A stretch of DNA of 54,603 nt from Rubidibacter lacunae KORDI 51-2 (GTDB lineage Bacteria; Cyanobacteriota; Cyanobacteriia; Cyanobacteriales; Rubidibacteraceae). Made by a program: the position numbers and the translations under genes. Below are positions 5,754 to 47,203 of this stretch, piece after piece (position 1 is the first letter of the stretch; every line of letters begins with the position of its first letter). The stretch spans positions 1-54,603 of the forward strand of contig NZ_ASSJ01000053.1 of assembly GCF_000473895.1 (NCBI RefSeq), given 5' to 3'. A model generated the notes under the pieces. The model had not been told where the DNA came from. It saw only the letters and a list, made by a program, of their open reading frames with translations, and ran no database searches.

Positions 5754-6089
5754 ATGGCTCAGCTCTTAGACTCCGTTCCAAGCAACACCCCAGAGCCGAT
5801 TTTTTGCTGCTACGTTAATGCAACTAGCAGTATGCAGGTTGCTCGAGTTGCAAATGTCCCGAACTGGTACTTCGAGCGCGTTGTCTTTCCTGGACAACGT
5901 TTGGTCTTCGAGGCATTGCCGGACGCGCTGCTCGAGATTCATTCGAGCATGATGGCTAGTGCGATTCTCTCCGACACGATCCCTTGCAATCGCTTGCGAG
6001 TGGATGCCGACGGCGGTACCGTAACCCCAGCATATGACTCGGCGCCGGCAGAGTCCAAAATTCCAGCCGCTGCAGCTGTAGATGTCTAA
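5754..6089 (+). CDS. DUF1830 domain-containing protein
   Basis: A 111-residue protein from the ATG at 5754; an in-frame TTG 45 bp upstream gives a non-conserved extension. Residues about 15-80 match DUF1830: the ICCYVNATS-type segment (FCCYVNATSSMQVARV), then NVPNWYFERVVFPGQR, and MMASAILSDTIPCNRL. It is a small, probably cytosolic, cyanobacterial protein of unknown function. The last 30 residues are Ala/Pro-rich and not conserved in the family as I know it. It is monocistronic by position. Confidence 0.85.
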   Translation: MAQLLDSVPSNTPEPIFCCYVNATSSMQVARVANVPNWYFERVVFPGQRLVFEALPDALLEIHSSMMASAILSDTIPCNRLRVDADGGTVTPAYDSAPAESKIPAAAAVDV

Positions 6090-7314
6090 TGCATCCCATT
6101 CGATAAAAAAATATGATATTTAGCTGTCATTGCTGGGCGATGGCAGCTTTTTCAGCAACACCTGCGGGTTGCGGCCAGGCCGACTGATGGAGCAGCTGCA
6201 CGATGTGCGTTTTCGCAGTAGTGCACGATCGATGCGATCGCTACGTACATTTCCTGTTTCCGTCACAGCTAAGAAGCCGCGCAATTGATGGACTCTTTCC
6301 TTGCTCGGTAGCACCCATGTCGAAGGACCGGAAAGTAAGCGCGTTGCAGATCGCTTTGCCAAAGCTTTCCTCAATCGTCTGACGACGGAGATGTTTTTTG
6401 CGGTCGTGCGCCTTAAACTTCACGAAATCCAGCTAAAACCCGGCAGGCGATCGTTTTAATATCTATGGGCAAAGTAAAGCTCGTTGGTTGCGAAAGCAGG
6501 CTTGGTATCTCCAGCCACGAAAGGCTGTAAGGCAAGTGAGAGGCGGGTCGAACTCGTTCCTATCCGCAGATGCTGCGCCAGCTGGTGCCTTTCCATCTAA
6601 ACGATTAAATGTCGGCCTTGCTTTAAAACGCTCTCGAGATCGACGGTCTCGCCGATGATGACATCGCCCGGCACCCATTTCTAAAGCGTCTCGGACCTGG
6701 CGTACTCAACAACGCGATCGCACTGACAGATATGCGGGATCCTCTTGACGCTAAAACTTTCCGCCGTCATAGCTCGAGCGAATTGCTGCTCGCTCGGGGA
6801 TTTATTACTGTTTTGGCAATTACTTGCGCGGTGAGGTGCCGTTCGCTGCTGGTATTGACCCGCTGGGCGGTCGCTCGACTGTCCCCTGGACTAGTTACTG
6901 AGACTGTCAGCCCCCGCGAGCTAGCTTCGGCGGCATTCCTATCGCCACTGCGTCATCCCTATCGACCTCGAACGCACGGCGGGAATGCGCTCCAAAAGCT
7001 ATAGTTCCAAGGGATACAGAAAGTAGCATGAGCCTATAGACACCGCTGCGCGTGGGCTTGCTAATGCACAAGCCCGCCGTTCCATTGCGTCTATGCCTCA
7101 CTACTCGTTGCTATACAATCACCAGGAGTACCTCCTTAAGTTTTTCAGCGGTCGTACCTACCGTGCTTCCAGTGCGGCAGCAAATCGTTAAGCACTAGGG
7201 TGGTCGGCGTTATTAGTTTGTCCGACGTAACACCCCGCACCCTAGCGTTCGTTAATGGGGCAGATGGTGTTCGAGTGCCGTCGACCTTGCACAACCCAGC
7301 AACTTCATTGCTGG
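6090..7314. other. 1.2-kb gap without a confident gene
   Basis: No gene of normal length is convincing. The minus-strand frame 6423-6241 (GTG start, 60 residues, containing KFKAHDRKKHLRRQTIEESF) is more protein-like than its surroundings and may be a remnant. It overlaps another minus frame ending at 6120 that shares no recognisable motif. At 7111-7140 there is an AGGAG-TAC-CTCCT inverted repeat that looks like a strong Shine-Dalgarno on the minus strand, but only a four-codon frame follows it. Confidence 0.5.
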
Positions 7315-8364
7315 TTAATCGCTGGCGCGATCGCTTCCCCAAACGGCTTGCAACTTCCGGACGAACTGATAGATTTCGGGTAGCTTCTTGTGGATAGCAG
7401 CTGCCTGCAGGTGCAATTGGTGCGAAATTGCCGGATAGCCCGACACTGTTGCCCCCGCTACAACGGATTTTTGTACGCCCGACTTCGCCGTCACGATCGC
7501 GCCGTCGCCGACTTCAATCTGGTTACTGATCCCGACTTGCCCTGCCAGCAACACGCCGTTGCCAACGCGGACGCCACCTGCCAACCCAGTTTGCCCCGCG
7601 ATCGCGCAGTTGGCTCCGATGTGGCAGCCGTGACCGATTTGAACGAGGTTGTCGATTTTCGTGTTTTGGCCGATACGCGTCTCGCCGACTGCCGGGCGGT
7701 CGATCGCGCTGTTGCTGCCGACTTCCACGCCGGTCTCGAGGACAACGCGCCCGGATTGCTCCATCTTGATCCAACCCTTAGCGCTGGGCACGAATCCGAA
7801 CCCTTCCCCACCGATGGCAGCACCGCTGTGGATGATGCAGTCATCGCCAATCCACGTGCGTTCGTTGATGGTGCAGTTGGCGTGGAGGGTGACGCGATCG
7901 CCGATCGTGACGTCGGGATAGATCGTGACGTTGGGATGCACGCAGGTGCGATCGCCGAGCACCGTGCGAGCGCCGAGGACAGCATGGGCGCCGATCGAGA
8001 CGTCCGCTCCGAGCTTCACCGTTGGGTCGATAACGGCAGTCGGGTGTATGCCAGGAGCGGGTCGATAAGGTTGGTAAAACAGCGAGATCGCCTGTGCAAA
8101 GGTCAGGCGCGGATTGTGGCAAGCAACCCAGGCAATAGCGCGGGCCGAGGCGCGTGCTTGCATTCGCGCGTCGTCCGGCAAAATCAGCGCGCTTGCTGGG
8201 GTGCGCTCGATCCAGTCGGCATACTTACTACTTTCGACATAGCTGAGCGTGTCCGGTGCAGCAGTCCGAATGTCGGCAACGCCTGAAATCTCGGGGTTGC
8301 TGCTGAGATCGGTTGCGAGGCAGTTGTCGGCAGTGAATTGCGCGATCGCGTCACTAAACTTCAT
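7315..8364 (-). CDS. lpxD: UDP-3-O-acylglucosamine N-acyltransferase
   Basis: A 349-residue member of the hexapeptide-repeat acyltransferases. LpxD transfers a 3-hydroxyacyl chain from ACP to UDP-3-O-acylglucosamine in lipid A synthesis. An N-terminal uridine-binding domain (residues 1-105) ends in the FYQPYRPAPGIHPTA junction. A left-handed beta-helix of [IV]G-x4 repeats follows, containing IGGEGFGFVPSAKGW and the catalytic His245 in VQIGHGCHIG. The C-terminal helix LPEIYQFVRKLQ is present, as in full-length LpxD. No lpxA, lpxB or lpxC is in the window. The gene stands alone between two long gaps. Confidence 0.95.
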   Translation of the reverse strand: MKFSDAIAQFTADNCLATDLSSNPEISGVADIRTAAPDTLSYVESSKYADWIERTPASALILPDDARMQARASARAIAWVACHNPRLTFAQAISLFYQPYRPAPGIHPTAVIDPTVKLGADVSIGAHAVLGARTVLGDRTCVHPNVTIYPDVTIGDRVTLHANCTINERTWIGDDCIIHSGAAIGGEGFGFVPSAKGWIKMEQSGRVVLETGVEVGSNSAIDRPAVGETRIGQNTKIDNLVQIGHGCHIGANCAIAGQTGLAGGVRVGNGVLLAGQVGISNQIEVGDGAIVTAKSGVQKSVVAGATVSGYPAISHQLHLQAAAIHKKLPEIYQFVRKLQAVWGSDRASD

Positions 8365-35716: not shown

Positions 35717-35886
35717 CGTTGTTTTTTAGCTTGAGGTCTTGCTTCATCAGTGCGCACTACTGGGCAGCAAAGCTAGTTGTTTTCGCGCAGCACGCTTGCC
35801 TCGAACTGCAGCCTAGCGATGCAGAAATACCTCTCCGAGGCTTGATAAGCTTGAGTTGCGCGCATTTGCCACGAGGAAGAACCGCC

Positions 35887-37029
35887 GTGCTGCTCTCCAA
35901 GGGCTTCGAAATCGAAATCTATACCGGTACGCCTGCTGGCGAGATCGTCGGGCTCTCCGATCGCATCGTCGCCGGCCTCCCGGGCTTTGTTCGCGAGCCG
36001 GATAGCCGCAATGTCGAATACACGACTGCCCCGCTTTACGACTACGATCGCCTGCTGTGTGCCTTAGTGCGCCCGCGCATGCATCTGCGCTCTTATTTGC
36101 AGCACCTCGGCAACTACACGCTGGTACCCGGCAGTACCTTGTCCCTCGGCAGCAGCGATCGCTTCTATCGCTCCGACCCCAGCAATCCTTACCACGAATA
36201 TATCGAACGCACGTACGGCACCCGCGTCGTGACCGCGAGCGTGCACATGAATATTGGCGTTGCCGATCCCGAGCAGTTGATGCGTGCCTACCGGCTCGCG
36301 CGCGTGGAAGCTCCCTTATACTTAGCACTGAGCGCGTCGTCGCCTTTCCTAGACGGTCGAGCTACCGGCTATCACTCCACTCGCTGGGGTCTGTTTCCCC
36401 AAACCCCCGCCCGCGTGCCGCTGTTTGTCAGCCACCAACATTACATCGACTGGACCGAGGAGCAACTGGTCCTCGGCACCATGCAAAACGTGCGCCATCT
36501 GTGGCTGTCGGCGCGCCCGAACGGCGACTGCCGTCCTTACAAACTCAACCGTTTGGAACTGCGCATTTGCGACTTAGTTGTCGATCCGATTGCGCTGCTG
36601 GCGATCGCGGCATTACTCGAAGCTCGCGTCGTTCAACTGCTCGGCGAGCCCGATTTAGATCCCCTGACGGCGAGCAAATTCGACGCCGATGCAATCCTCG
36701 ACCTTATTGCCGCGAACGAACAGGCAGTCGCCCGTGACAGCCTCGATGCCGATCTCCAGCACTGGCAGGACGGTCGCTACCTCAGCGCTCGCGACTGGAT
36801 TGCCGAGCTGTATCCGCAGGCCGCCGAAATCGCTCGCCAAGGCGGTTACCTGTGTTTTCTGTCTCCCCTGAAGAAACTTCTGCGCGAGGGGAACGCTGCC
36901 CAACGGTGGCTGCACCAATACGCCAGTGGTAGCGCGCCGCAAGCAATTGTCGCCGGCGCTATCCGCAATGCCGAGCAACACGAGCGGGAATTGGAAAGCA
37001 AGCTCTGTCCGCAGCTAATGGCTGCCTAG
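35887..37029 (+). CDS. gshA: Glutamate--cysteine ligase, cyanobacterial type
   Basis: First step of glutathione synthesis (Glu + Cys + ATP). The sequence matches the cyanobacterial gshA family throughout: LLSKGFEIEIYTGTPAGEIV, FVREPDSRNVEYTTAPL, YTLVPGSTLSLGSSDRFYRS, GTRVVTASVHMNIG, GYHSTRWGLFPQTPARVPLF and YKLNRLELRICDLV. The start is GTG 35887, decided by GAGGAAGAAC 5-14 bp upstream and by family alignment; the open frame to 35719 is not conserved. 380 residues, normal for the family. It lies 171 bp after the broken deacetylase gene. Confidence 0.95.
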   Translation: MLLSKGFEIEIYTGTPAGEIVGLSDRIVAGLPGFVREPDSRNVEYTTAPLYDYDRLLCALVRPRMHLRSYLQHLGNYTLVPGSTLSLGSSDRFYRSDPSNPYHEYIERTYGTRVVTASVHMNIGVADPEQLMRAYRLARVEAPLYLALSASSPFLDGRATGYHSTRWGLFPQTPARVPLFVSHQHYIDWTEEQLVLGTMQNVRHLWLSARPNGDCRPYKLNRLELRICDLVVDPIALLAIAALLEARVVQLLGEPDLDPLTASKFDADAILDLIAANEQAVARDSLDADLQHWQDGRYLSARDWIAELYPQAAEIARQGGYLCFLSPLKKLLREGNAAQRWLHQYASGSAPQAIVAGAIRNAEQHERELESKLCPQLMAA

Positions 37030-41033: not shown

Positions 41034-41201
41034 TAGCCTGGATTATTCATGAACTCTTATGCGGAGACCCTTAACCTTTTGCCCTGCAATGCTTGCAGTC
41101 ATTTTCGCTCAATGACAGTACGTTTCTACACACGTAGATTTGAGCCTAGTCAGAGCAAGGGCTTAAGGCTTCGTCAAAATCTTCGTGAATAATCCAGGCT
41201 A
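41034..41201. mobile_element. MITE-like element with 20-bp inverted repeats
   Basis: The left end at 41034-41053 and right end at 41182-41201 are inverted repeats (core TAGCCTGGATTATTCA) with 19 of 20 positions matching. They enclose 128 bp that does not encode a transposase. This is the structure of a miniature inverted-repeat element or the collapsed remains of an insertion sequence. The ends recall IS1380-type termini, from memory only. No clear target-site duplication is visible. Length 168 bp. Confidence 0.7.
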
Positions 41202-41373: not shown

Positions 41374-41733
41374 ATGACCGACTCAAATGTTTGCAGTTAT
41401 GGCTTCCGGCTGCCACCCTCGTTTGCCCTTTACCACGAGCTGCTGTCGATGCAGCTCCTGGCAGTTGGTGGCGGCTCCAGCAGCATTTGTGCCGCAAGTG
41501 CCATTGCTGCCTCAAAATGGTGGATTGGAGTAGCTGTGTCGACTCTGTTGCAAGAGCCCGAACGACTCTGGCGGTCATACACCTACTACAATCCCCTCTA
41601 CACTTGGATAGCCGCACTTCAGGGTTTCGTCTTCATAGAATGTCCGAGACGCTGCCCCACCAGCACCCCAGTCACTGCGGTACGGCTAGACTCGACGCGT
41701 CCCGAACATCAGCAAATTAGTCCGGCGATCTAG
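41374..41733 (+). CDS. Possible hypothetical protein, 119 residues
   Basis: ATG 41374 is preceded by GAGGTGGTGAC, a reasonable ribosome binding site. The translation has a Trp/Tyr-rich middle (SKWWIGVAVSTLLQEPERLW, then YTYYNPLYTWIAALQGFVF), which would be unusual for random GC-rich DNA, but no family is recognised. Its end overlaps the YHS gene's 3' end by 4 bp, convergently. It may be a real orphan or a chance frame. Confidence 0.3.
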   Translation: MTDSNVCSYGFRLPPSFALYHELLSMQLLAVGGGSSSICAASAIAASKWWIGVAVSTLLQEPERLWRSYTYYNPLYTWIAALQGFVFIECPRRCPTSTPVTAVRLDSTRPEHQQISPAI

Positions 41734-42482
41734 AGCTGAACGGCGCCAACAGTGTCGTAGTAGATAACACCTGCAGTCTCGAGGATCCCTGGCCAGAATT
41801 CATCGCCTTTGGCAATCTTGCCCGGCACGTCCTGCAACCATTCTTCTTGGGCTTCCATGCTGTAGTTGAGATACAGCTTGCCATCGACAATCTTCCACGC
41901 TTCGGGAATCGACGAGGCTAGGTTGTTATCGCTCAAAGCTTTGGCACAGTAGCCACCGTACTGCGGTGCAAAGGCTTCCGGGTTAGCCGTGAATTGCGCG
42001 AGATTTGCTTCGTTAGCAAATTGCCAGGTTGCACCATTCCACTGGTACTGCAGAGAGCTTTCGCCTTCTACCGGCTTGCCCTCGACGAAGTACGCCACGG
42101 GGTCGTAACCGCGAATCGCCAGGTTGTCCCCCGCTTCGGGGTCGGTATAAATGGCGGGGGCTGTTGCTGATGCTGCTGCACACGGATTGGATGCAGCACA
42201 GGGATTGCCCGCACAGGGATTGGCCGCGCACGGATTCGATGCACAAGGATTGGCTGCGCAAGGAGATGCACAAGGATTGGCTGCGCAAGGAGATGCACAT
42301 GGGTTCGCCGCGCAAGGCGACGCACAAGGATTGGCTGCGCAAGGCGACGCACAGGGATTGACCGACGCACAAGGATTTGCCGCACAAGGATTCGAGGTGT
42401 TTTGCGAATCGGCAAGGGAACAACCAGAGCCCAAGCTTAGCATTGAGGCTAGAGCCAAAGTTGTAAAAAACTTAATCTTCAT
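41730..42482 (-). CDS. YHS-domain protein with Cys-Pro (NPCA/SPCA) repeat tract
   Basis: A 250-residue exported protein. Residues 1-24 are a signal sequence ending GSGCSLA; Cys21 could be lipidated, but the residue at -3 is Gly, so a classical lipobox is doubtful. Residues 31-103 are almost entirely N/S-P-C-A units with 15 regularly spaced Cys. Residues about 115-190 form a YHS domain of the (seleno)protein-type family: AIRGYDPVAYFVEGKPVEG, YQWNGATWQFANEANLAQF and YGGYCAKAL. The C-terminal 55 residues include IVDGKLYLNYS, also usual in that family. YHS domains are linked to metal binding; the Cys tract suggests a periplasmic metal sink, which is inference. The GGAG of the ribosome binding site lies 12 bp before ATG 42482. 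Confidence 0.88.
   Translation of the reverse strand: MKIKFFTTLALASMLSLGSGCSLADSQNTSNPCAANPCASVNPCASPCAANPCASPCAANPCASPCAANPCASPCAANPCASNPCAANPCAGNPCAASNPCAAASATAPAIYTDPEAGDNLAIRGYDPVAYFVEGKPVEGESSLQYQWNGATWQFANEANLAQFTANPEAFAPQYGGYCAKALSDNNLASSIPEAWKIVDGKLYLNYSMEAQEEWLQDVPGKIAKGDEFWPGILETAGVIYYDTVGAVQL
42174..42392 (-). repeat. Tandem repeat encoding Cys-Pro tract
   Basis: The NPCA-tract codons include four tandem copies of a 27-bp unit (SPCAANPCA) at 42240-42347, flanked by more diverged NPCAA copies. The units keep the reading frame, so expansion or contraction by slippage would change tract length without breaking the protein. Confidence 0.85.
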
Positions 42483-44580: not shown

Positions 44581-45333
44581 TCAGCCCTCCTCCGCAGCTG
44601 AGACTGATGGTTTCGGCTCGACCACGACTTCGGCCCAGCCTCGGCTGCGATCGCTCTCCGAGTCTATGGTGTCCATCGCCTCAAACATCATAGAGACGGG
44701 AAGCCAGTGCGGAGGATATTTGTATCTTGCCGTATCTAGTAGCAACAGCTTGTCGTGCTCTTCCGAATAGGCGGCAACCGGCGAAATGTGACCGCCCCCC
44801 TCCTGTCCAACAACCTGTCGGTCGTAGTTGACGATAAGAAAATCCTCGGCGTTGCTGGCGTTTGCCCGAAGCACCGCGCGAAAGTCATCCACAGTTGCGG
44901 TGGAGGCGTGGCGGACAGTGACATCAGCCTGGTGAGCTACCAGCATCTCGCCTAAGTCTTCCAGTGGCATCCCTGCAAAAGTAGTGGCTACCCAAGGTCG
45001 GACCTCTCGCACCGCCTCCGTGAAGAAGCTATTTTGAGACAAGCTTCTACCTCCAGCGTTGAGGACAGTGACCGCGGAGGCAACTCCACACCAGCTCAGC
45101 TTCTCCTGCCATTGAAACGCCTCGGTCAGCGCAGAACGGTCCGCAGCAAGAGCCACCTCCAAGAGTTTTTCACCGCGATCGCTGTCGCCCTCAACTAGGT
45201 GCGCTGGCAAGGAGCGAGCCTCTACTTTCTCGGGACTCGAAATCGTCAAGTAAGCTGACCATGCCGACAGCCCGGCGAACGCAGCCGAGGTGACACCGAT
45301 GCCGATTCCAATTTGGGTCAGGACACGCCGCAT
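44581..45333 (-). CDS. Phytochelatin-synthase-like peptidase with N-terminal membrane segment
   Basis: A 250-residue half-length PCS of the cyanobacterial type. Residues about 5-30 are hydrophobic (signal peptide or anchor), so the enzyme is probably exported. The papain-like triad is intact: Cys82 in LSWCGVASAVTVLNA, His182 in GGGHISPVAAYS and Asp200 in LLLLDTARYKYPP, at nearly the same spacing as the characterised Nostoc enzyme (Cys70, His183, Asp201). Bacterial half-length forms mainly cleave the Gly from glutathione and make little or no phytochelatin. It lies 8.7 kb from gshA on the opposite strand. Confidence 0.9.
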   Translation of the reverse strand: MRRVLTQIGIGIGVTSAAFAGLSAWSAYLTISSPEKVEARSLPAHLVEGDSDRGEKLLEVALAADRSALTEAFQWQEKLSWCGVASAVTVLNAGGRSLSQNSFFTEAVREVRPWVATTFAGMPLEDLGEMLVAHQADVTVRHASTATVDDFRAVLRANASNAEDFLIVNYDRQVVGQEGGGHISPVAAYSEEHDKLLLLDTARYKYPPHWLPVSMMFEAMDTIDSESDRSRGWAEVVVEPKPSVSAAEEG

Positions 45334-45781: not shown

Positions 45782-47203
45782 GTGGAGTATGACGTAGTAG
45801 TGATTGGCGGTGGTTCTGGCGGACTGGTAGTTGCAAGCGCAGCAGCTCAGCTTCACGCCAAGGTTGCCCTCGTCGAAAAGGATCGCCTGGGCGGCGACTG
45901 TTTGTGGTTTGGCTGCGTTCCGAGCAAGTCCCTCCTCCACGCCGGCCGTGCCGCTTACGAGGTCCGTAACGGATCGCGATTCGGCATCTACACCGATCCA
46001 CCACGCATCGAATTCGCGGAAGCCACGCGTCACGTCCAGCAAGTCATTGCCAACATTCAACCCCACGACTCGCCGGAGCGCTTTCGCAGCTTGGGCGTCG
46101 AGGTGATTTTTGGCGAAGGGAAGTTCAGCGGTCGAGACACTTTCGCCGTCAACGGCCGGCAACTGACGGCGCGGACGTTTGTCGTTGCTACAGGCTCGCG
46201 TCCTGCCCTGCCGCCGATTCCCGGCTTGCAGGCAGCAGGCTTCCTAACCAACGAGCAGGTGTTCTCCTTGCAAGAGTGTCCGCAGTCGTTAGCTGTCATC
46301 GGAGCCGGACCGATCGGTTGCGAACTCGGACAGGCACTGCACCGATTGGGCTCGCAAGTCACCATCATCAGCAGCCGCGATCGCATCATGCCTAAGGAAG
46401 AGCCCGAGGCTGCGGATGTAGTCGAGCGTCAGTTCGTCGCTGAAGGCATTCGCATCATTCACAATGCTCGTGCCGAGAGCGTTGAGGTGGCGGGCAATAA
46501 AAAGATTGTGTGGGTGGGCGGGCAAAAAGTCGTTGTCGATGAAATTCTCATGTCATCGGGACGCGTTCCGAATGTACATTCGCTCAACCTAGAAGCAGCC
46601 GGTGTTGAGTTTTACAAGACCGGTATTAAAGTCAACCAAAAGCTGCAGACAACTAACAAGCAAATCTATGCCTGCGGCGACGTCATCGGCGGCTACCAAT
46701 TTACCCATGTTGCCGGCTACGAAGCCGCCGTTGTAGTTGCAAATGCACTATTCCTGCCTGTCAGCAAAGCCGACTATCGCGTAATTCCTTGGGCGACTTT
46801 TACTGAACCCGAGCTCGCCCGCGTCGGGTTGACCGAAGAGCAGGCCCGCGATCGCTACGGCGACAAGGTCTGTATTGTCAAGCAAGACTTTGCCAACGTA
46901 GACCGCGCTCAAGCAGAAGCAGCAACGGACGGCTTTGCGAAATACGTTCTCGATCCGAAAGGTCAAATTCTGGGGGCGCACCTCGTCGGTTCCTCTGCCG
47001 GCGAGTTGATCCACGAAGTTATCTTGGCAATGAAAAATAAGCTACCCATAACAGCGCTTTCTGGGTACGTTCACATCTACCCGACGCTTTCAGAGATCAA
47101 TGGCAAAGCCGCCCTCGCATTCAAGAAACAAGGATACGCGGCGAACAAGACGCTCCAAAACCTTTTGCGTGGATTCTTCAACTTCCGACGCGGTAAGTTC
47201 TAA
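45782..47203 (+). CDS. MerA-like pyridine nucleotide-disulfide oxidoreductase
   Basis: A 473-residue FAD/NAD(P)H enzyme starting at GTG 45782. FAD site: VVVIGGGSGGLVVA near the N terminus. The redox disulfide is C40 and C45 in GGDCLWFGCVPSKS. NAD(P) site: LAVIGAGPIGCELG. IYACGDVIGGYQFTH is the second FAD motif, and the dimerisation domain ends with VHIYPTLSE. It resembles cyanobacterial proteins annotated as mercuric reductase, but the N-terminal metal-binding domain and the C-terminal Cys-Cys pair of MerA are both absent, so mercury reduction is uncertain. A dihydrolipoamide- or other disulfide-reducing role is also possible. Confidence 0.92.
   Translation: MEYDVVVIGGGSGGLVVASAAAQLHAKVALVEKDRLGGDCLWFGCVPSKSLLHAGRAAYEVRNGSRFGIYTDPPRIEFAEATRHVQQVIANIQPHDSPERFRSLGVEVIFGEGKFSGRDTFAVNGRQLTARTFVVATGSRPALPPIPGLQAAGFLTNEQVFSLQECPQSLAVIGAGPIGCELGQALHRLGSQVTIISSRDRIMPKEEPEAADVVERQFVAEGIRIIHNARAESVEVAGNKKIVWVGGQKVVVDEILMSSGRVPNVHSLNLEAAGVEFYKTGIKVNQKLQTTNKQIYACGDVIGGYQFTHVAGYEAAVVVANALFLPVSKADYRVIPWATFTEPELARVGLTEEQARDRYGDKVCIVKQDFANVDRAQAEAATDGFAKYVLDPKGQILGAHLVGSSAGELIHEVILAMKNKLPITALSGYVHIYPTLSEINGKAALAFKKQGYAANKTLQNLLRGFFNFRRGKF

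Follow-up and report, generated by a model that had tools for sequence, protein, structure and literature searches.

A repeated proline-cysteine-alanine unit on a YHS_seleno protein of Rubidibacter lacunae, and its recurrence on exported-looking redox-type proteins

What might a cyanobacterium do with an exported-looking protein that carries 15 cysteines in a run of near-identical units? Proteins sent to oxidising compartments as a rule do not carry large numbers of free cysteines. The question is posed by a gene of Rubidibacter lacunae KORDI 51-2 on a stretch of 54,603 nucleotides (NZ_ASSJ01000053.1, positions 1 to 54,603), called the window here. The gene and its parts are:

41730..42482, minus strand: tract-YHS gene with a product of 250 aa, comprising a signal-like start, an [NS]PCA tract and a YHS_seleno domain (ORF, Pfam, NCBIfam)
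42420..42482, minus strand: N-terminal signal-like sequence, residues 1-21, ending LSLGSGC (by eye)
42177..42392, minus strand: Cys tract, 15 units of [N/S]PCA[A/S/G], residues about 31-102 (TRF, codon reading, AlphaFold)
42252..42359, minus strand: four tandem 27-bp units coding NPCASPCAA, differing at third codon positions only
41790..42125, minus strand: YHS_seleno domain, residues 120-231, with the single Cys179 (NCBIfam, alignment)

The reading frame opens with ATG, and its product has Cys at position 21, 15 Cys between positions 33 and 101, and a last one at 179. The N-terminus, MKIKFFTTLALASMLSLGSGC, looks signal-like by eye. Bacterial lipoboxes follow patterns such as [LVI][ASTVI][GAS]C; L-G-S-G-C is a possible non-canonical version, and because Gly stands at -3 before the Cys, lipoprotein status is possible but unclear. 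We regard the protein as possibly a lipoprotein or Sec-secreted. A rough script rule applied to 86 tract proteins found a lipobox in 29, an AxA site in 41 and neither in 16. The first-pass annotation had described one exported protein: a single ORF does hold the signal-like start, the Cys tract and the YHS domain, with export as a prediction from that start. Both Pfam PF04945 (35.2 bits, cut-off 30.3) and NCBIfam NF041384, YHS_seleno_dom (154.5 bits, cut-off 70, model positions 1-112 of 113), confirm the YHS domain that it had named. Cys179, the sole Cys of the domain, is invariant in 22 aligned proteins. The selenocysteine form of the family was not found here, as the Cys179 codon is TGT and no UGA interrupts the frame ahead of its stop; the Cys form is nonetheless a member of NF041384. 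It is the only YHS_seleno gene in this 4.15-Mb, 99.6% complete genome. A sequence search of the PDB gave no match to the protein. Among plasmid records, 82 match it, all with query coverage below 80%; the alignments of the 15 listed are confined to residues 119-237.

Within the tract, successive Cys are 5, 6, 4, 5, 4, 5, 4, 5, 4, 5, 5, 5, 5 and 6 residues apart. The regular Cys-x3/4-Cys spacing described at first pass thus holds in slightly looser form, with C-x3 and C-x4 joined twice by C-x5. Tandem Repeats Finder (TRF) reported a 27-bp period over 42211-42360 (5.4 copies, 86% matches, score 189). The four exact-length, in-frame NPCASPCAA units bear out the in-frame expansion that had been proposed but not its description as recent, since any two units differ at 2-6 of 27 positions, all of them third codon positions; a very recent origin is therefore unsupported. 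A DNA pattern for PCAxxPCA matched eight times in the genome, always in this gene, and its reversed control matched once, which places the tract beyond chance. AlphaFold modelled residues 21-110 as disordered (pLDDT 37-42, without metal), YHS residues 121-170 at pLDDT 82-93 and the remaining domain mostly at 57-75 (whole-protein mean pLDDT 57.3, pTM 0.45). The earlier picture of the tract as a stalk lacks support because the tract is modelled without a fold. Foldseek with the whole model returned nothing at E <=0.001 (best 0.021). With VIA-align the model matched 9d2f_A at Z 7.7 (62 aligned, 3.4 A) and, over residues 124-173, the toluene/o-xylene monooxygenase hydroxylase 3rng_A at Z 4.4 (42 aligned, 2.1 A). 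These matches of the predicted model are weak and consistent with a YHS fold like that of the YHS segment in toluene monooxygenase hydroxylase.

We assembled YHS_seleno ORFs from the best 80 of 359 relatives in a contig scan and from a survey of 291 genomes of the class, 72 of which have NF041384. Counting PC[AGSTV] units ahead of the YHS domain, 48 of the 183 distinct ORFs (the window's included) have at least two units, 5 have one and 130 have none. The first-pass annotation had suggested that a YHS protein with such a tract would be a new type of envelope thiol protein; the tract is not peculiar to YHS proteins but forms a wider module, and 130 of 183 YHS_seleno ORFs are free of any unit. 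Neither is it absent or scrambled in all relatives with its Cys lost: those that carry it keep the Cys, with no broken unit in the 86 spans described below, and a comparison of repeat numbers gave 2 to 25 units among them. All 48 tract-bearing ORFs are cyanobacterial, coming from cyanobacterial records or the class survey; YHS proteins of Alphaproteobacteria, Nitrospinota, Halomonas and Kangiella have at most one PC each. On a tree of 115 YHS domains built with the tract excluded, the tract state is explained by 8 changes, where 500 shufflings required 34.4 on average and never fewer than 26. The window protein falls in a clade of 20 tips, every one with a tract, on what is a quick tree (support 77) whose exact topology is soft. 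One sampled genome, G150, belongs to the same family; it lacks both YHS and tract but carries a dioxygenase of the kind introduced below, and no other genome of that family was in the sample. Tract-only ORFs stand directly before tract-YHS ORFs at L009, L072, L107, L110 and L198, and close to tractless YHS ORFs at L131, L144 and L166.

How strictly is the unit kept? In a strict count of 86 distinct tract spans holding 739 units, Ala follows Cys in 738 and N or D precedes Pro in 715. Cys is coded by TGT 422 times and TGC 317 times, and all four Ala codons are used. Steps from Cys to Cys are of 6 (341), 5 (212), 7 (66), 8 (28) and 4 (6) residues. With looser joining, which also gives 86 spans and 779 PCA units, there were no replacements of Cys in [ND]PxA[AGS] or of Pro in [ND]xCA[AGS], and no Cys outside PCA, broken units being looked for with three patterns within spans whose definition already depends on PCA. 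Decayed edge units lie outside the spans in L008, L014 and L109, and cytochrome-type tracts of Nitrospinota hold 10 degenerate positions of the form [ND]P(not C)A. Judged from these sequences, purifying selection is acting on the PCA unit, because the units are unbroken while Cys and Ala codons and the spacing vary. Since the unit is kept while its spacing is free, each unit seems to act independently.

A genome counted as a tract genome if it matched at least one of two DNA patterns, each coding for paired [ND]PCA units. The patterns matched 57 and 38 of the 291 genomes (union 71), against control matches of at most one per genome and three in all; single matches in G152, G163, G170, G191 and G230, probably not real tracts, are kept in the main figures. 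The cyanobacterial tracts stand alone with signal-like starts or are fused to YHS, thioredoxin, DM13 or Rieske domains. One fusion of each kind was scanned with Pfam, giving 49.6 bits for thioredoxin (L204; L201, L203, L206, L218 and L232 resemble it by eye), 91.6 bits for the DM13 'electron transfer' domain (L225) and 42.5 bits for Rieske (L238). Nine cyanobacterial tract-only proteins had nothing above the Pfam cut-offs (one match reached 16.3 bits, cut-off 27), and seven had no NCBIfam match. Of five non-cyanobacterial genomes tried, a Nitrospinae genome and an alphaproteobacterial one (Kiloniellaceae) contained the pattern, and those of Kangiella, Halomonas and an acidobacterium did not; the class of the Nitrospinae genome then had it in 15 of 18 genomes. 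Nitrospinota tracts stand alone or are joined to a CxxCH cytochrome-like region (L302, L307-L311, L313, L317), which in L302 scored 16.9 bits with Pfam, below cut-off. Two Nitrospinota tract-only proteins gave defensin-like and cornifin matches in Pfam, again below cut-off. Two of the non-cyanobacterial fusions are:

L303 5145-6548, plus strand: tract-cytochrome P460 fusion with a CNPCNPCAAKNPC array, Kiloniellaceae (Pfam 27.4 bits, cut-off 27)
L302 5676-6767, plus strand: Nitrospinae protein with Cys arrays on either side of a CxxCH (cytochrome c-like) region

About 4 kb from the first of these is a second, stand-alone array (L303 10425-10814, plus strand), and beside the other is an ORF with two CxxCH motifs (6803-7678, plus strand). 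Three further proteins of the Nitrospinota class have Cys arrays flanking a small domain without a Pfam match, all on the minus strand (L305 1794-2489, L313 1975-2607, L317 2267-3025). From its distribution we conclude that the tract is a mobile module shared by exported-looking redox-type proteins. Its recurrence in many such proteins, with the Cys intact, suggests a thiol module of the cell envelope that has not been described before. The fusions to thioredoxin, DM13, Rieske, cytochrome P460 and the CxxCH region favour a redox or metal role.

We clustered the neighbours of 79 tract loci over 5 kb. A cupin recurred, with 22 distinct members. By phmmer, one member matched 3uss, a 3-mercaptopropionate dioxygenase, at E 5.5e-14, and its PDB matches are 3-mercaptopropionate/cysteine dioxygenases (3uss, 6xb9, 4tlf). 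Residues H111, H113, H165 and Y181, which we equate with the metal-binding His triad and the conserved Tyr found in the CDO/MDO cupin site, are invariant in 16 sequences; the cupin belongs to the thiol dioxygenases. At 24 distinct places a tract ORF is no more than 1.6 kb away from it, in loci mostly chosen for carrying tracts or YHS, with duplicates collapsed by eye and distances taken between stop-to-stop frames. The dioxygenase is present in 66 of the 71 tract genomes, compared with 69 of the remaining 220 (Fisher p 3e-21), a count that treats related genomes as independent and uses a model built from tract-linked genes, whose top scores favour tract genomes by construction; stratification by 13 of the families gave an odds ratio of 16 (p 1.5e-9). 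With the five doubtful genomes excluded the count is 63 of 66. YHS itself co-occurs with the dioxygenase (stratified odds ratio 8.5), yet only 11 of 25 YHS genomes lacking tracts have it. In loci L120-L198 of at least 5 kb, 6 of 22 tract-YHS genes have the dioxygenase no farther than 4.5 kb away, leaving 16 without it at that distance, compared with 0 of 55 tractless YHS genes that have it so close. Sixteen non-cyanobacterial loci, 14 of them short, were scanned and yielded no homologue.

A second linked gene encodes an FGE-fold protein, of which one member was scanned (L098; PF03781, FGE-sulfatase, 121.8 bits, cut-off 23.3). An alignment of 13 FGE-like proteins shows four invariant Cys, and the starts of these proteins are signal-like by eye. 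Relatives of the protein include EgtB, SenA, PvdO and GldK/PorK as well as FGE. At 11 of 12 distinct places, again in loci mostly chosen for tracts or YHS and with duplicates and distances handled as before, the FGE-like ORF is co-directional with the tract ORF and 51-229 nt before it. Of the 291 genomes, 40 carry it, and 37 of the 40 are tract genomes (odds ratio 79, p 1e-23), under the same reservations about relatedness and model construction; stratified by 7 of the families, the odds ratio is 21 (p 1e-10). The gene is missing from 34 of 71 tract genomes and is present in 37 of 66 once the doubtful five are excluded. In the window's genome, contig C79 carries a divergent, adjoining pair, the FGE-like gene (L299 4895-5857, minus strand) and the dioxygenase gene (5893-6501, plus strand), apart from the window gene. 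Other genomes in which the two adjoin include G046, G071, G103, G113, G189, G203 and G279. A protein of DsbD_TM type, identified from one member with Pfam, occurs in 7 tract loci, 5 of them of the tract-thioredoxin kind. The largest neighbour cluster, with 35 distinct members, consists of kinases and response regulators, a common kind of protein.

Three further genes of the window are:

44581-45333, minus strand: phytochelatin synthase with an apparent N-terminal signal or membrane stretch (PF05023, 174.7 bits)
45782-47203, plus strand: MerA/dihydrolipoamide-dehydrogenase-like FAD oxidoreductase
35719-37029, plus strand: cyanobacterial glutamate-cysteine ligase (TIGR02048, 658 bits)

The phytochelatin synthase gene is 2 kb from the tract gene. 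No homologue of it was found at the other tract loci examined, so its neighbourhood is probably a coincidence and we dropped it as a tract partner. MerA-like homologues are also near tracts in L260 and L295. Window positions 41034-41201 hold a MITE-like element of about 168 bp, its 20-nt inverted ends 95% complementary; elsewhere in the genome it has at least 39 matches at 86-93% identity and one weak match, from 40 of 61 candidates scored.

The explanation that we prefer, at somewhat less than even confidence, is an envelope polythiol array that buffers oxidants and/or soft metals for the fused redox domain. The window protein would cross the cytoplasmic membrane into the periplasm or thylakoid lumen, or become anchored in the envelope. 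Its disordered N-terminal tract would display 15 independent, presumably reduced thiols in [NS]PCA units, tethered to the redox-type YHS_seleno domain. The array might then act as a local polythiol reservoir that takes up oxidising equivalents and/or soft metal ions, and it could serve the fused domain by transfer to it. [NDS]-P is a helix N-cap motif; more speculatively, [NDS]-P-C-A-[AGS] may combine N-cap and Pro to place the Cys at a helix N-terminus, where its pKa would be lowered.

We favour such buffering because the fused domains share an electron or metal chemistry typical of the space outside the cytoplasmic membrane. The conservation of the unit rather than its spacing, the linkage to dioxygenase and FGE-like genes in other cyanobacteria, the recurrence of DsbD_TM and the fused or adjacent arrangement of tract and YHS support the array, as does the small number of tract changes in the YHS tree (8, where shuffling averages 34). 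Several observations count against it: the window gene is apart from its genome's dioxygenase and FGE-like gene, 16 of 22 tract-YHS genes have no dioxygenase nearby, and G150 has the dioxygenase with neither YHS nor tract. So do the low mean pLDDT, the decayed edge units, the degenerate units of Nitrospinota and the strictness of Pro and Ala around each Cys, as well as the failure to find the dioxygenase in the 16 non-cyanobacterial loci scanned.

Metal binding as the primary role ranks second, and we think it on balance unlikely: the tract, once exported, would trap Cu(I), Zn(II), Cd(II) or Hg(II) much as a metallothionein does, with the fused domain as a delivery or sensing module. The dense Cys spacing would suit it, as would the phytochelatin synthase, MerA-like reductase and glutamate-cysteine ligase in the window, the MerA-like genes at L260 and L295, and a copper response reported for another YHS domain (PMC4626032). 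The window's YHS domain, however, has one Cys, phytochelatin synthase is confined to this one of the tract loci examined, the fused domains are mainly redox, and no metal pump or regulator was recognised by eye in the neighbour clusters inspected, most of which have no annotation. In an alternative that we consider improbable, the tract Cys are post-translationally modified by the FGE-fold protein and/or the thiol dioxygenase, with [ND]PCA[AGS] as the recognition motif. The co-directional FGE-like ORF just ahead of the tract (11 of 12 places), the 37 of 40 FGE-like genomes with tracts, the near-invariant flanks of each Cys and the four invariant Cys of the FGE-like protein all fit. Against this, the substrate motif of FGE is CxPxR, and the tract has none; this and the 34 of 71 tract genomes lacking the gene make modification less likely. 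The kinship of the FGE-like protein to EgtB, SenA, PvdO and GldK/PorK also speaks against it, and CDO-type enzymes are known to act on small thiols. Even so, near-absolute Pro before and Ala after each Cys exceeds what a plain thiol or metal buffer needs, and recognition by an enzyme could account for it.

Linkage to a CDO/MDO-family dioxygenase might instead point to a sulfur or cysteine sink, in which the tract stores or exports surplus cysteine and the dioxygenase disposes of the remainder; this leaves the near-invariant P and A and the redox-domain fusions unexplained, and we hold it very improbable. Least credible, and already disfavoured, is a low-complexity linker grown by slippage whose Cys have no function. 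Tandem DNA repeats and a unit number of 2 to 25 are what slippage would give, but 0 of 779 units are broken despite free synonymous change, and the 27-bp units differ only at third positions.

A broader reading, which we propose tentatively and as rather unlikely, is a hitherto undescribed, trans-phylum envelope thiol system of exported [ND]PCA[AGS] arrays, either free or joined to redox domains. In cyanobacteria it would have three parts, with a dedicated dioxygenase and an exported FGE-fold protein perhaps chemically modifying or regenerating the Cys, so that a new cofactor array of redox or metal type would arise. One constant thiol unit that recurs as many as 25 times, with no break in the spans examined, and that is placed on varied redox-type domains suggests an unrecognised way of handling electrons, oxidants or soft metals in the envelope, one that would concern cyanobacteria and Nitrospinota. 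The linked dioxygenase and FGE-fold genes open the chemistry of the tract to direct testing and would provide a context for both enzyme groups.

No description of the tract was found in the titles or abstract openings of a partial literature collection, and papers matching its sequence strings were, by title, unrelated. Of the families already named, YHS_seleno_dom (NF041384) includes the C-terminal domain of the window protein, in the Cys rather than the Sec form; its 113-position model spans the domain only and not the tract, and none of its non-cyanobacterial members among the 183 ORFs exceeds a single PC unit. No family function emerged from the partial texts of the literature surveyed; a YHS selenoprotein is listed in the GOS survey (PMC2398784). 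For copper-responsive YHS/TRASH domains, one Asp (or Cys) and three Cys have been proposed as metal ligands (PMC4626032). The single Cys of the window's YHS domain differs from this Asp/3-Cys set, and the window protein is ruled out as a copper-sensor YHS because that copper site is missing.

Exported Cys-rich MNIO RiPPs, which work in a comparable location, comprise the bufferins and others, among them the CxxxxC family, whose published members are from Pseudomonadati and encoded beside MNIO genes (PMC12452194). They have a signal peptide, where the window protein has a signal-like start, and the tract resembles them in its repeated Cys, partly spaced as C-x4-C, and in metal buffering as a possible role. 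The tract differs in its [ND]PCA[AGS] motif and its fusion to redox domains. A search for MNIO (PF05114) gave no match in the window's 99.6% complete genome and was positive in 2 of 14 control genomes, so a bufferin is ruled out for this genome. The CefA 'Cys-every-fifth' RiPP (NF038108) has Cys every fifth residue, as some tracts do, and matched the Rieske fusion L238 (14.2 bits) and a tract of G060:C297 (22.8 bits) weakly, below the cut-off of 30; it is rejected for the window's genome, with 0 matches in a genome search that is noisy (many matches with internal stops). Pfam found no metallothionein among the nine tract-only proteins. Metallothioneins are dense in Cys and able to bind soft metals, as the tract may be, whereas the tract is exported-looking, disordered as modelled, and built by repetition of one fixed PCA unit.
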